Below, piece after piece: positions 20,945 through 26,839 of a DNA stretch of 37,693 bases. The stretch lies in the NCBI GenBank assembly GCA_019242655.1, contig JAFAVH010000352.1:1-37693 (forward strand), written 5' to 3'. The notes beneath the pieces were generated by a model, which was not told the origin of the DNA, made no database searches, and worked only from the letters and a program-made list of their open reading frames with translations. This DNA is from Methylobacteriaceae bacterium. GTDB taxonomy: Bacteria; Pseudomonadota; Alphaproteobacteria; Rhizobiales; Beijerinckiaceae. Every line of letters begins with the position of its first letter. Position 1 is the first letter of the stretch. The translations under genes and the position numbers were made by a program.

Positions 20945-21835
20945 CTATCGCTCACCCCGTTTGGATCCAGCGGGCGTAAAAGCGGAGAGCGGGGTCGGAT
21001 CTCGGCTCGGTGCCGGCGGTATCCGCCCATCGACGTCGGTAAAGCCGTATTCGACGGCTAGCTCGGAGACGAGAAGCGTCTGCCCGGACTTTGCGAGCAC
21101 GTGCGGGTCCATGGCGAGCGCCGCCACCGCCCGGCCGGTGAACAATGGCGTCTCGCCTCGTTCTTGTATCATCTTCGCGAGCGCGGGCGGCACCCGGTCC
21201 GGCTGTGCGGCAAGCTTTTCGCTCTTGATGAATCCGGGCCAAAGCGAGACGGACGCGATGCCGAACGGCTTCAATTCGTGCGCCATGTCGCGCGCCAAGC
21301 GGTCCACGCCGGCCTTCTGCACGCCAAAGGCGACGTTGAATGTGTAGCGGACCCCGCCTCCGGACGACGTGTTGACGATGAGGCCGCGGCCCTGGTCGAT
21401 CATCAGCGGCACAGCGTGCTGCGATGCGATGAAATGGGAGCGAAGACCGACGCTGTGCAGCATGTCCCATACTGAAGACGGCATTTGCCAGAAAGGCGTG
21501 TTGACCGGCATGACCTGCGGTGCGGCGAACACGTTATTAACGAGGACGTCGAGCCTGTCGAAATCGGCCTCGATCTTGGCGAAGAGCTGTTTGATTTCCT
21601 CGTCGTTGCCGTGATCGCATTCGACTCCCATCCCGCGCCCGCCGGCAGCAGAAATCTCCTCTATCGTCTCCTCAAGCGATCCCGGCCAAATCGAATCTCC
21701 GCTTTTCCGCGTTCGCGCGGTGACAATGATTGTCGCGCCCTTTTCAGCTAGTCCGAGCGCGACACCCTTGCCAACGCCGCGGCTGCCGCCGGTGACGAGC
21801 GCCACGCAATCCCGCAATGACGTTGCAGAGATCAT
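20945..21835 (-). CDS. SDR family NAD(P)-dependent oxidoreductase
   Basis: VALVTGGSRGVGKGVALGLAEKGATIIVTART, LDVLVNNVFAAP; start MISATSLRD at 21835. The YxxxK motif is not canonical (RYTFNVAFGVQKAG). Confidence 0.86.
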   Translation of the reverse strand: MISATSLRDCVALVTGGSRGVGKGVALGLAEKGATIIVTARTRKSGDSIWPGSLEETIEEISAAGGRGMGVECDHGNDEEIKQLFAKIEADFDRLDVLVNNVFAAPQVMPVNTPFWQMPSSVWDMLHSVGLRSHFIASQHAVPLMIDQGRGLIVNTSSGGGVRYTFNVAFGVQKAGVDRLARDMAHELKPFGIASVSLWPGFIKSEKLAAQPDRVPPALAKMIQERGETPLFTGRAVAALAMDPHVLAKSGQTLLVSELAVEYGFTDVDGRIPPAPSRDPTPLSAFTPAGSKRGER

Positions 21836-21893
21836 CCTCCCCTCCCTCGTCGACCTTTCAAGACAAACGTCAAGCTGATCCGCACGCAAATTT

Positions 21894-21909
21894 ATCTTGC
21901 TAGGAAGAT
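21894..21909. promoter_or_regulatory. Candidate MarR-family operator
   Basis: Imperfect palindrome ATCTTGCTAGGAAGAT between the divergent SDR and Rieske oxygenase genes; near copy at 25587-25610. Confidence 0.5.
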
Positions 21910-21957
21910 ATATGCGGTGTATCGATCCGAGGGTCAACCAAGGATGGGGGTGGTGCG

Positions 21958-23181
21958 ATGGTCACAAAGGCAGAGAACGAACTTCTGTCCCGCGTAACCG
22001 GCGACGCTCCGATGGGCAAAATGTTGCGCCAGCATTACTGGTTGCCTGCCGTCCTGTCCGTGCGCGTCAAATATGGACAAGCGCCGACGAAGGTGCGGCT
22101 GTTTGGCGAGAACTTTATCGCCTTCCGCGGCGAGGACGGGAAGGTCGGCTTCATGGAGGAAGCCTGCCCGCATCGTGGAGCGTCACTTGCTTTGGGCCGC
22201 GTCGAAGGTTGCGCGGTTCAATGCTTGTTTCATGGATGGAAGATTTCATCCGACGGGCACGTCGTCGATGTTCCAAACGAGCCGAACCGGCCGGCGGAAT
22301 TTGCGAAGACCGTCAAGGTACGCGCCTACCCTTCCCGCGAAGGCGCCGGCATCATCTGGGTCTGGCTCGGAGAGGGAGAGGCGCCGCCGTGCCCCGACTT
22401 CGAATGGATGGATTTGCCGCCGGAGCAGGTTTACTCTGCCGGCATCGAACTGAACGCCAATTGGCTGCAAGGCGTGGAAGCGACGATCGATTCGTCGCAT
22501 GTCGCGCTGCTTCACACGAGCTGGACGACAACATCCGCCACCGATTTCGGGGCGACGCGCGAGAACACGGCCGTAAACTACGAGTTCGAGAAGAAGCCCT
22601 ACGGTTTTCGCGCGGCGGCGCTACGTGCGGCGCCCGACGGCTCCTGTGTGGCGCGCGTCACCGAGTTCGTCATGCCGTACTATGGCTTGATCCCGCCGAT
22701 CTTCACCGGTCCGAAACAGGATCGCATCGCCATCATCGCCGTGCCGATCGACGACGAGAACCTTATCCAGTGGTACATCTACTACAATCCGGAGAAGCCG
22801 GTTGACTCGATGAAGCGAACGCAGCGCGCCAATCAATGGCCGATGGCCGGCGGACTGCCAGGCGATCGGTCGAATAATTGGGGCCAGAACCGCGACGTGA
22901 TGGGCGCCGGCAACAATTCCGGCTTCTTCGAAATCGTCATCGAGGATTTCGTCGTCATGGTCAGCATGGGTCCGATCGTCGACCGAAGCAAAGAGTACCT
23001 TTGCTCGAGCGATCAGGCCATCATCCGCGTGCGGCGGATGCTCTTGGAAGAGGTGAAGGCGTTCATGGCGGGCAAGGCGCCAAAAAGCGCGCAAACGCCT
23101 GCGATGTCTTACCAGGGCGTGCGCGCCGTTGGCGGCCGGTTGCCGTCGACCTCAGACGATTGGCGACAGATCGCGGCTTAG
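21958..23181 (+). CDS. Rieske (2Fe-2S) aromatic ring-hydroxylating oxygenase, alpha subunit
   Basis: CPHRGASLALGRVEGCAVQCLFHGWKI Rieske motif; NWLQGVEATIDSSHVALLHTSW mononuclear Fe region. Confidence 0.9.
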   Translation: MVTKAENELLSRVTGDAPMGKMLRQHYWLPAVLSVRVKYGQAPTKVRLFGENFIAFRGEDGKVGFMEEACPHRGASLALGRVEGCAVQCLFHGWKISSDGHVVDVPNEPNRPAEFAKTVKVRAYPSREGAGIIWVWLGEGEAPPCPDFEWMDLPPEQVYSAGIELNANWLQGVEATIDSSHVALLHTSWTTTSATDFGATRENTAVNYEFEKKPYGFRAAALRAAPDGSCVARVTEFVMPYYGLIPPIFTGPKQDRIAIIAVPIDDENLIQWYIYYNPEKPVDSMKRTQRANQWPMAGGLPGDRSNNWGQNRDVMGAGNNSGFFEIVIEDFVVMVSMGPIVDRSKEYLCSSDQAIIRVRRMLLEEVKAFMAGKAPKSAQTPAMSYQGVRAVGGRLPSTSDDWRQIAA

Positions 23182-23238
23182 CGAAACAGTCGCGCAAGAG
23201 CTCTGCCGTTCTCGCACGGCGCCGGGAGTAAAGGCACC

Positions 23239-23562
23239 ATGCCAGATTGGACGCACGTTTGCGCCGCTTCGAAAGTAGAGGAAGGCGAACCGTTCGGCGT
23301 CAAGCTGACGGAGGAGCTTCGCATCGCCGTATACCGTGTCGATGACGCGATCTACGCCACGAACGATGTCTGTCCGCATGCCTTCGCTCTTTTGTCGACG
23401 GGCTTTCTGGATGGTCATCAGATCGAATGCCCGCTTCATGGAGCAATATTCGATGTGAGGACGGGCAAGTGCCATGTTGCCACCTACGACGATGTCCGCG
23501 CCTACAAAGCCGAGGTCCGCGACGGTGACGTCTTCGTCGACCTGGACTCAACGTCGTCTTGA
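23239..23562 (+). CDS. Rieske-type ferredoxin component
   Basis: CPHAFALLSTGFLDGHQIECPLHGAIFDVRTGKC; placed between oxygenase and reductase. Confidence 0.88.
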   Translation: MPDWTHVCAASKVEEGEPFGVKLTEELRIAVYRVDDAIYATNDVCPHAFALLSTGFLDGHQIECPLHGAIFDVRTGKCHVATYDDVRAYKAEVRDGDVFVDLDSTSS

Positions 23563-24806
23563 GTGGACTTGTCGTTATCGGCGGCTCCTACGCCGGGTTG
23601 ACAACGGCATCCGCGGCGCGCGAGTCAGGTTATCTCGAGCCGATCACGATCATCGGCAATGAAGCGCATCTCCCTTATCAAAGACCTCCATTGTCGAAAG
23701 CGTTTCTGTTGGGCGATGCCGACGAGCAGAGCCTGCTGATCCGCGCCGCGCGTTTCTTCGTGGACCAGAATATTGATGTTCGGCTTGGCACGTCCGTGAC
23801 TGGAGTCGACCGCCGAGCCAAACGCGTCGAATTGTCGGACGGACGATCTCTCACCTACGACGCACTGGCCTTTAGCACGGGATCGAGAGCGCGGCGCCTC
23901 GACATTCCCGGTGCGACTCTTTCCGGTATTTGCTATCTCCGCTCGCTCGGCGACGCCGTGGAATTGCGCGATCGCTTGGCAGCCGCAAAGGACGTCGTCG
24001 TTATCGGCGGCGGCTTCATCGGATTGGAGGTAGCGGCCTCGGCACGCCACCTCGGCAAGACCGTGACGGTGATCGAAAGCGCGGCGCGCCTTCTGGAGCG
24101 GGCGGTGACGCCGCTGATAGCAGACTACCTTTTGCGGGAGCACCAGGCAAAAGGCGTTCGCGTCCATTTCGACGAAACGGTGCGGGAATTCGCCGGTGAC
24201 GGAGTAAAGGTTTCATCGGTCATTCTGCGAAGCAACGAACGGATTGCAGCCGATCTTGTTCTGATCGGGATCGGCGGACTACCGAACGATGACGTCGCGC
24301 GCGCCGCCGGGCTCACCTGTACAAATGGCATTGTCGTCGACGACTTCGGACGCAGCCGCGACGACGCGTGCATTTCTGCCGCCGGCGACTGCGCAAACCA
24401 TCACAGCGGATTTGCGCGCGGCTGGATCCGGCTCGAATCCGTTCAGAACGCGCAGGATCAGGCGCGCATTACGGGCTCGACGATCGCCGGGCAGGAGCGG
24501 CCCTATAACAGCGTGCCTTTGTTCTGGTCGGACCAATACGATACGAAACTTCAGATGGTCGGCTTTTCCAAAGGACATGATCGCTTCGCGATGCGCGGTC
24601 GTCCCGACGATGGTCAGTTCTCGGTCTTCTACTACCGGACCGGGGAGCTCATCGCCGTCGACAGTGTCAACAGACCTGCCGACCAGCTGATTGCGAAACG
24701 CCTGCTCGCGGCGGGACTTTCTCCTGGCATCGATCAGGTCGGCGATATGTCGTTCGACTTCAAAACGTTCCTGAAGCGAGGCATCGAGAAAAGCGCTGCG
24801 CGCTAG
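23559..24806 (+). CDS. FAD-dependent ferredoxin reductase (BphA4/RhlG-like)
   Basis: TTG start overlapping the ferredoxin stop (TTGA); VVIGGSYAGLTTA, LPYQRPPLSKAFLLG, VVVIGGGFIGLEVAASARHLGKTVTVIE, AAGDCANH. Confidence 0.9.
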   Translation: MSGLVVIGGSYAGLTTASAARESGYLEPITIIGNEAHLPYQRPPLSKAFLLGDADEQSLLIRAARFFVDQNIDVRLGTSVTGVDRRAKRVELSDGRSLTYDALAFSTGSRARRLDIPGATLSGICYLRSLGDAVELRDRLAAAKDVVVIGGGFIGLEVAASARHLGKTVTVIESAARLLERAVTPLIADYLLREHQAKGVRVHFDETVREFAGDGVKVSSVILRSNERIAADLVLIGIGGLPNDDVARAAGLTCTNGIVVDDFGRSRDDACISAAGDCANHHSGFARGWIRLESVQNAQDQARITGSTIAGQERPYNSVPLFWSDQYDTKLQMVGFSKGHDRFAMRGRPDDGQFSVFYYRTGELIAVDSVNRPADQLIAKRLLAAGLSPGIDQVGDMSFDFKTFLKRGIEKSAAR

Positions 24807-25444
24807 CGACCCGTCCGCCGTCGCGGGCGCAGAAGCTTGGCCGGCCGCGCGCCCGTCACGGCCGAACCCGTTGCCCGCGTTTTCCGCTGTCCGTGCTTCG
24901 CCAAAGCCGAGACGTTGAGCAGTTTACGAAAGCCGCGATCCATGACCGCAATTTCGTTCTGCGTCAGGCCACTTTCCAGCAAGACGTGCTTCGTGATCCG
25001 CGCAATCTCCGCAATGCCGCGGTCGGCGACGCTGAGACCCGAACCGGTCAGTCGTACAAGTTCGGACCGCCCGTCATCGCTTGCCGAGGTTCGGACGATC
25101 AAACCGGCGTCCTGCAATTTCGCGACGCGTTTGGTCATCGCCCCGGATGTGACGAGGAGGGTTCGAAACAGATCGGTCGGACGAAGTTCATAAGGCTTGC
25201 CCGCGCGGCGCAATGCGAGAAGAACCAGAAGCTCGCCCGTGTGGATGCCGATCGCTTTAGAGATTGCCTTCACGCGCGCCTCGTGAAGCTGGTTCGCCCG
25301 TTCCATGCGCAGGAGAGTGCAGGCCATTCGCAAGTCGAGGTCGGGACGCTCTGCGAGCCAGGCGGACTCTATGTCGTCGTAAAGCCTCTCGGGCCGCAAT
25401 CGCTTCGCCGGCACGATGGTTTTCCGTCCTGCTCGCTTTGCCAT
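24803..25444 (-). CDS. MarR family transcriptional regulator
   Basis: HTGELLVLLALRRAGKPYELRPTDLFRTLLVTSGAMTKRVAKLQDAGLIVRTSASDDGRSELVRLT winged-helix pattern. Confidence 0.85.
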   Translation of the reverse strand: MAKRAGRKTIVPAKRLRPERLYDDIESAWLAERPDLDLRMACTLLRMERANQLHEARVKAISKAIGIHTGELLVLLALRRAGKPYELRPTDLFRTLLVTSGAMTKRVAKLQDAGLIVRTSASDDGRSELVRLTGSGLSVADRGIAEIARITKHVLLESGLTQNEIAVMDRGFRKLLNVSALAKHGQRKTRATGSAVTGARPAKLLRPRRRTGR

Positions 25445-25580
25445 CTCTGTCCCGCTTACACCGCCCTTTGTTGGCGCTCTAATCGCCGCTCGATCGAGCA
25501 ATTAGCACCGGTCGGTCCAGAGAAACTAGCGCCGACGGGAATTTTTACACCGGTTCCCCGGCGCCGAACAAAAAGAACCG

Positions 25581-25610
25581 TTGACTAGAAAGCTTCCAAG
25601 GAAGATAAAT
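25581..25610 (+). promoter_or_regulatory. Candidate sigma70 promoter with overlapping MarR-type operator
   Basis: TTGACT-N17-GATAAA; spacer and -10 contain CTTCC-AA-GGAAG. Reverse complement ATTTATCTTCCTTGGAAGCTTTCT matches 21890-21913 at 19 of 24 positions. Confidence 0.5.
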
Positions 25611-25711
25611 GTGCACAATCTGAGGGGGCGGAAAGTGGCGCACTGGCGATGTAATGTAGCTCTGGGCCTGCTCCTCGTAGGCGCGTTTGTCGGCGGGTCG
25701 ATGTATCGCCC

Positions 25712-26839
25712 GTGCGAGCCGCAGATGATGAGATCGTGCTTGGGCAGACCATGCCGTATAGCGGACCTGCGTCTGTGCTCAGCGCCATCGGCAAGGTGCA
25801 GAGCCGCTACTTTCAGATGCTCAACGATCAGGGCGGGATCAACGGCCGCAAGATCAATCTGATTTCGCTCGATGATGGATACAGTCCGCCCAAGGCAGTC
25901 GAGCAGACGCGGCGTCTTGTCGAGAGCGACAAGGTCGTTGCGATGTTCGCAAGTATGGGAACGGCACAGAACACCGCGGTGCAGAAATACCTGAACGCGA
26001 AGAAGATACCACAGCTCTTCGTGTTCTCGGCGAGCGACCGCTTCGCCGATCCGAAGGCGTATCCTTACAGCATCTCCGGAATGACACTCTATACGACCGA
26101 GGCCGCGATTTATGCCGGTATCGTCGCTAAGCTCGTGCCGCAAGCCCGCGTTGCGGCACTTTATCAAAACGACGATTATGGACGCGAATATCTCAAGGGC
26201 TTCCGGGAGCAACTTGCAAAGCTCGATCCGCAAGCTTCGATCGTCTCCGCGCTGCCATACGAGGTGACGTCGCCGTCGATCGAATCGCAAGTTATTACGC
26301 TCGCGGCGACGAGCGCGAACGTCTTTCTGGATGCATCCGGTGGAAAATTCACCACGCAAGCGATCAGGAAAGCAGGACAGATCGGCTGGAAGCCGCTCCA
26401 CTTCCTGCCGATCGGCAGCAACTTTGTCGCAACGATTCTAAAACCGGCGGGACTGGAATATGCGACAGGATTGATCACCGCGACGCCGACCAAGACTGTC
26501 GGCGATCCTGAATGGGCCGACGATCCCGGTTATTTGGAGTGGCTTGCGTTCATGAAGAAATATTACCCGGAAGGTGACATCCAGGATCAGCTGAATTTCA
26601 CCGGTTGGACCGTCGCTGTTCTAATGAAAAAAGTTATTGAGGCGTGCGGCACCGACGTTTCGTCGGAGAATCTGCTGAAGCAGGCGACAAACCTTCGCTC
26701 GGTCGTATTACCCGGATTGCTTCCTGGCTACACTGTTAGTACGTCTCCGGAGGATTATCGGATCGTAAAATCGCTCCGGCCGCAGCGCTTCGATGGAACG
26801 CGGTATGTTCCGATGCTCGACTCCCAATCGCTTCAATAG
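25712..26839 (+). CDS. ABC transporter substrate-binding protein, HAAT (branched-chain amino acid-type) family; signal peptide out of frame upstream
   Basis: DDEIVLGQTMPYSGPASVLSAIGKVQSRYFQMLNDQGGINGRKINLISLDDGYSPPKAVEQTRRLVE; GTG 25712 is the first in-frame start, leader lies in another frame (25635-25711). Confidence 0.84.
   Translation: MRAADDEIVLGQTMPYSGPASVLSAIGKVQSRYFQMLNDQGGINGRKINLISLDDGYSPPKAVEQTRRLVESDKVVAMFASMGTAQNTAVQKYLNAKKIPQLFVFSASDRFADPKAYPYSISGMTLYTTEAAIYAGIVAKLVPQARVAALYQNDDYGREYLKGFREQLAKLDPQASIVSALPYEVTSPSIESQVITLAATSANVFLDASGGKFTTQAIRKAGQIGWKPLHFLPIGSNFVATILKPAGLEYATGLITATPTKTVGDPEWADDPGYLEWLAFMKKYYPEGDIQDQLNFTGWTVAVLMKKVIEACGTDVSSENLLKQATNLRSVVLPGLLPGYTVSTSPEDYRIVKSLRPQRFDGTRYVPMLDSQSLQ

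Follow-up and report, generated by a model that had tools for sequence, protein, structure and literature searches.

Paired palindromes as candidate MarR operators at a Rieske oxygenase module in a Methylobacteriaceae bacterium

Introduction

A 37,693-nucleotide contig of a Methylobacteriaceae bacterium (JAFAVH010000352.1, assembly GCA_019242655.1; the whole stretch is referred to here as the window) carries a gene for a MarR-family regulator between two intergenic regions that contain closely similar palindromes. One of these lies between divergent genes for a short-chain dehydrogenase/reductase (SDR) and a Rieske oxygenase, the other between marR and a gene for a solute-binding protein, raising the question of which regulator reads the two sites and what it controls through them. 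A first-pass annotation of the DNA had proposed that one regulator, most likely the local MarR protein, coordinates catabolism and uptake. Following up this proposal by sequence comparison, we put at about 0.87 the probability that both palindromes are operators of a MarR dimer encoded between them, which would keep both promoters blocked as long as no aromatic-acid-like ligand displaces it. Within this model we infer DNA binding, a repressing and not an activating mode of control, the ligand, and a part in transport for the binding protein. The scheme has good support, but it is substrate-switched gene control of an ordinary type that is already known.

Results

To place the sites at the level of the sequence, we re-examined their position, symmetry and expected frequency. 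Both were found at the coordinates previously reported (Table 1), with site 1 self-complementary at 20/24 positions and site 2 identical to it at 19/24, in agreement with the first-pass annotation. Its description of one and the same palindromic operator holds for the sequence shared by the two places, but not for symmetry over the full length, since site 2 is only weakly palindromic across 24 bases (14/24), its symmetric part being the 12-base core CTTCCwwGGAAG (perfect CTTCC-NN-GGAAG). When the two intergenic regions were compared in both orientations, the top 24-mer match was 20/24, compared to a maximum of 18 in 2000 shuffles of the same regions. The genome scan that had been suggested returned the pattern WTCTTNCTNGGAAG exactly twice in the 3.7-Mb assembly, at sites 1 and 2, a count that is not independent because the pattern was derived from these two sites; a perfect TATCTT-N6-AAGATA occurs once in the whole assembly, at site 1. 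As an independent test, we built a scoring matrix from the orthologous sites alone, leaving the window out. Under this matrix, site 1 scored 30.1 and site 2 27.1, the next position in the window reached -1.1, and the highest score in 200 Markov-shuffled windows was 20.1.

Both palindromes sit on putative core promoter elements. Site 1 is flanked by the start codons of two divergent genes, that of the SDR (ATG 21835) and that of the Rieske oxygenase (ATG 21958). Site 2 occupies the interval between the marR start codon (ATG about 25444) and the gene for the binding protein, at about 140 bp from the former; the gene context described earlier for site 1 was thus borne out, as was the TTGACT-N17-GATAAA promoter over site 2, divergent from marR.

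Conservation of the sites, which had been named beforehand as a point on which the proposal could fail, was examined in 14 orthologous loci obtained by a MarR protein scan (13 Bradyrhizobium and one Hyphomicrobiales metagenome-assembled genome; MarR 61-73% identical). All 14 keep the SDR, the oxygenase and the binding protein, and an exact reading of the core found a ATCTTCCTAGGAAGAT-like palindrome at both promoters in every one of them. At both promoters of all 14 loci, the palindrome has TTGAC[AT] immediately on its left, and its right arm enters the -10 element; the window keeps TTGACT at site 2 only. In palindrome-anchored orthologs, the 16-bp core holds a mean of 1.91 bits per column at site 1 and 1.72 at site 2, with the flanks at 0.42-0.72. 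Most Bradyrhizobium loci also have a second, weaker palindrome 28 bp further upstream of site 1, possibly an extra operator on the SDR side, which the window lacks.

These loci also allowed us to consider whether another regulator, linked or unlinked, binds the palindrome and MarR is a bystander. A LysR gene (about 81-87% identity) lies beside the binding protein in nine of the 14 loci, making its product an obvious candidate. However, it was not found in the window or in five orthologous loci (L071, L075, L078, L079 and L081, with no more than a 30% match), although both sites are retained in each case, and remote MarR relatives carry the motif without such neighbours. A palindrome between -35 and -10 is also better placed for repression than for activation by a typical LysR protein. 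We rejected the LysR neighbour as the regulator and regard control by any regulator other than MarR as very improbable.

Next, we surveyed the motif across genomes. At no more than two mismatches it occurs in one to four copies in each of the 14 orthologous genomes, nearly always in the module locus, and a reversed-pattern control matched in one genome only. Across 249 Bradyrhizobium genomes, oxygenase and MarR orthologs are found in exactly the same 16 genomes, and the motif at no more than one mismatch is present in 16/16 of these versus 7/233 of the others (Fisher 4e-20, a value that overstates independence given that the genomes are related). Carriers of the module include B. retamae and B. 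pachyrhizi. In Bradyrhizobium sp. Tv2a-2 (L083), where gene order has changed, the reductase gene is located away from the oxygenase and comes with an operator of its own, whose CTTCCTAGGAAG core is intact (L083:9790-9805). Two further motif matches were set aside as chance, one inside a predicted reading frame (G439:C7, L170) and one with no clear link (L172). A second MarR paralog, 58% identical and encoded beside an SDR and an ATP-binding cassette (ABC) ATPase (L204, G316:C32), has no such site within the fetched stretch.

The motif also follows MarR beyond the module. In remote MarR relatives (about 28-45% identity), TATCTT-N6-AAGATA lies upstream of the regulator gene itself, whatever the neighbours, usually some 20-140 bp before the point where homology to marR begins. 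At no more than one mismatch, this arrangement was present upstream of marR in 41/81 MarR-family loci, while any other spacer tried gave at most four; a second, class-wide sample had spacer 6 in 22/29 loci, other spacers in at most three and reversed strings in none. MarR proteins can activate, and the position of the site in remote relatives is as in autoregulation, so that one has to weigh whether MarR occupies both sites as an activator, or chiefly as an autoregulator. Against this, in 14/14 orthologous loci the sites fall on core promoter elements of the genes to be controlled, which is a blocking position, and site 2 is remote from the marR start by the distance given above; we consider either mode quite improbable, and repression of the target promoters remains our preferred interpretation.

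The inner bases of the site appear to be linked to the protein. When MarRs with CC/GG cores were aligned, 22/22 had Met-Thr-Lys105 (one of them Val-Thr-Lys), while residue 105 is mostly Asn, Ala or His in relatives with GA cores and Asn, in a different helix, in those with TC cores. An AlphaFold2 model places the recognition helix at about residues 100-112, followed by a beta wing, with Lys105 in that helix (predicted local distance difference test score about 93), and in a tree the proteins with CC cores form at least two distinct groups, Bradyrhizobium and Actinomycetota. Taken together, the alignments suggest an association between the inner CC/GG bases and Lys105. This bears on the idea that the palindromes, being inverted repeats able to fold as RNA, are terminator or attenuator hairpins and not protein sites. 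We find that scarcely credible, because sites between -35 and -10 are not transcribed from their own promoters, and the conserved spacer of six and the association with a residue of the recognition helix point to a protein as the reader of the sites. The assignment to the local MarR protein thus rests on remote relatives with the same architecture, on the co-occurrence of oxygenase, MarR and motif, and on the covariation of inner bases with residue 105. In line with the MarR family, the protein has a winged helix-turn-helix MarR domain and a palindromic operator of about 16-20 bp near its gene.

In Cellulomonas, marR genes (L084-L087, L089) are directly preceded by a pair of CTTCCNNGGAAG palindromes with a spacing of 21 bp, or about two turns of the helix. 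A contig filed as Streptomyces sp. AcH 505 (L090) encodes a MarR that is 43% identical, with three palindrome copies and neighbouring genes for two LigXa-type oxygenases, a Fer2-domain reductase, a complete branched-chain-type ABC transporter and an SDR; its low GC content (61%) suggests that the contig is not from Streptomyces.

Several observations weigh against operator function as proposed, in addition to the relatedness of the Bradyrhizobium genomes. The Lys105 rule has exceptions: among the remoter Lys proteins, two (L012 and L160) have mixed or TC cores and a third (L164) has a poor site. Moreover, actinobacterial loci were fetched with peptide words including VTSGAMTK, so the protein side of the residue-105 test was selected. 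In the window itself, the hexamer at the -35 position of site 1 (ACGCAA) is not recognisable as such and one arm of site 2 is degraded, and control here could for these reasons be weaker than in Bradyrhizobium. Finally, the 5' end of the binding-protein gene looks frameshifted, or affected by an assembly error: the signal-peptide-like VAHWRCNVALGLLLVGAFVGGSM and the mature ADDEIVLGQTMPYSGPAS are read in different frames (25635-25720), whereas the orthologs in two other loci (L073 and L079) have a continuous frame.

Such features would be expected if the system is real in Bradyrhizobium but decaying here, its sites being remnants with weak or lost control. The frameshift, the weak -35 at site 1, the asymmetry of site 2 and a gene order around the module that differs from Bradyrhizobium are all consistent with decay. 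On the other hand, both sites score far above the remainder of the window, the oxygenase, ferredoxin, reductase and MarR reading frames are intact, and the frameshift may be an assembly error in this 434-contig genome. On balance we think decay unlikely and favour a working MarR-controlled pair of promoters.

The remaining genes of the module are listed in Table 1. The nearest solved relatives of the oxygenase include phthalate dioxygenase-type enzymes, and no Ring_hydroxyl_B small subunit was found among the window open reading frames (ORFs) scanned. There is no matching permease or ATPase beside the binding protein in the window; a downstream Opp-type transporter is on the opposite strand and has its own binding protein, and an uptake role for the orphan binding protein is suggested by its family.

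The neighbourhood of the module varies. Bradyrhizobium loci have a conserved nitroreductase-like gene (identified by eye) and a second binding protein that the window lacks, and in B. ivorense the SDR is followed by genes for urocanase and an aromatic amino acid lyase (L073:12419-15838), which were not found in any other orthologous locus. One Bradyrhizobium genome (G850) contains extra operators (L207:3576-3755 and L208:2996-3011) near genes for a flavodoxin-fold reductase, a PnbB-type 4-hydroxylaminobenzoate lyase together with protocatechuate 3,4-dioxygenase, and a major facilitator superfamily transporter, hinting at a wider regulon and pathway. The Bradyrhizobium neighbours, including PnbB and protocatechuate 3,4-dioxygenase in that one genome, offer hints of an aromatic acid passing to protocatechuate; those genes are not in the window.

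Table 1 Coordinates of genes, candidate promoter elements and candidate operators in the window
Feature	Position	Strand	Basis and remarks
SDR oxidoreductase, 296 amino acids, divergent from oxygenase	20945..21835	-	Pfam adh_short; ATG 21835 preceded by GGGAGGGGAGG; 71-78% identity in 14/14 orthologous loci
Weak -35-like hexamer ACGCAA, oxygenase promoter	21884..21889	+	Sequence; orthologs have TTGACA here
Candidate operator site 1	21890..21913		ATTTATCTTGCTAGGAAGATATAT; core ATCTTGCTAGGAAGAT at 21894-21909
-10-like GATATA, oxygenase promoter	21907..21912	+	Overlaps right arm of site 1; sequence, ortholog alignment
Candidate SDR promoter TTGACC-N17-CATATA	21909..21937	-	-10 overlaps site 1; weak, read by eye
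Rieske oxygenase alpha subunit, phthalate-dioxygenase-like	21958..23181	+	Pfam Rieske + LigXa_C (LigXa_C 1.1e-30); PDB 7fhr, 7fjl; 77-81% identity in 14 orthologous loci
Rieske-type ferredoxin	23239..23562	+	Pfam Rieske; NCBIfam HcaC/AndAb-like
Flavin adenine dinucleotide (FAD) ferredoxin reductase	23559..24806	+	Pfam Pyr_redox_2 + Reductase_C; overlaps ferredoxin gene
MarR-family regulator, 213 amino acids	24803..25444	-	Pfam MarR_2 4.7e-11, MarR 4.8e-06, both above curated cut-off; translation; AlphaFold2 model
-35 hexamer TTGACT, binding-protein promoter	25581..25586	+	TTGAC[AT] in 14/14 orthologous loci
Candidate operator site 2	25587..25610		ATTTATCTTCCTTGGAAGCTTTCT on minus strand 25610-25587; core CTTCCAAGGAAG at 25593-25604; between -35 and -10
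-10 hexamer GATAAA, binding-protein promoter	25604..25609	+	Sequence
Peripla_BP_6 solute-binding protein	25635..26839	+	Pfam; signal-peptide-like start GTG 25635 out of frame with mature part (ORF 25712-26839)

Discussion

We propose that, when free of ligand, a MarR dimer would occupy ATCTTCCTAGGAAGAT-like DNA in the spacer between the -35 and -10 elements of the oxygenase-ferredoxin-reductase and binding-protein promoters, where it would exclude RNA polymerase by occlusion; at site 1, it would probably also cover the -10 of the divergent SDR promoter. Binding of an aromatic-acid-like substrate or intermediate would then release MarR from the DNA, so that oxidation and substrate capture would be switched on together. 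Known MarR repressors of aromatic catabolism, such as DdvR and IadR (described below), work in this way. Regarding the earlier proposal of one regulator coordinating catabolism and uptake, the regulator is supported by conservation in 14/14 loci, remote relatives, co-occurrence and residue 105, and by the lack of LysR in the window and five loci, while the uptake half depends on the family of an orphan Peripla_BP_6 protein whose gene is apparently frameshifted at the 5' end.

The coincidence of two similar sites can in this way be turned into a testable regulon with a defined operator, a promoter logic and a candidate specificity residue, and it provides a sensor and promoter pair for the Rieske oxygenase, as well as a sequence rule for finding further members of the MarR subfamily. 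More tentatively, and with doubts that outweigh our confidence, the data may delineate an undescribed MarR subfamily in Alphaproteobacteria and Actinomycetota that reads TATCTT-N6-AAGATA, in which residue 105 would set the inner bases, with Lys specifying CC/GG and Asn, Ala or His specifying GA-type cores, and the CC/GG version would control a Rieske oxygenase module of patchy distribution, whose aromatic acid substrate may lead into protocatechuate. We found no paper describing this operator (CTTCCTAGGAAG, TATCTTGACGTCAAGATA, TCAAGATA or GGAAGAT with MarR) in the open-licence literature.

Compared with its own relatives, the window MarR shares half-sites, a spacer of six and a site near marR with the GA/TC-core proteins of Alphaproteobacteria, which differ in their inner bases (GA..TC, AA/AG..TC or TC..GA, as opposed to CC..GG) and in residue 105, usually Asn, Ala or His. 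The nearest solved MarR structures by sequence are PDB 8ylh and 8ylf (E 4e-22 and 5e-20), with recognition helices reading TMTHR and SMTNR versus AMTKR in the window. The MarR protein IadR (MarR_73) of Variovorax CL14 represses an aromatic catabolic operon through a 24-bp site in front of it and is released by the substrate, auxin (PMC9613470). The resemblance to the window MarR lies in the control scheme, and the iad locus has a different oxygenase type and gene set, with a two-subunit ring-hydroxylating oxygenase beside marR, whose type of small subunit was not found among the window ORFs scanned. PheR (PMC13273656) was rejected as a parallel, being an IclR protein.

The nearest known parallel is in Sphingobium sp. 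SYK-6, where the MarR-type repressor DdvR controls the Rieske oxygenase gene ligXa and the uptake gene ddvT and is released by the aromatic substrate, the oxygenase being served by the ferredoxin LigXc and the reductase LigXd (PMC6874591). The window likewise has a LigXa-type oxygenase with separate ferredoxin and reductase, and the same candidate operator at its oxygenase and binding-protein promoters, the latter protein having a putative, family-based role in transport. The uptake part of the SYK-6 system differs, as it is a TonB-dependent receptor, with 5,5'-dehydrodivanillate as the substrate, where the window has a binding protein. The likeness to DdvR drawn here is one of gene set and control logic.

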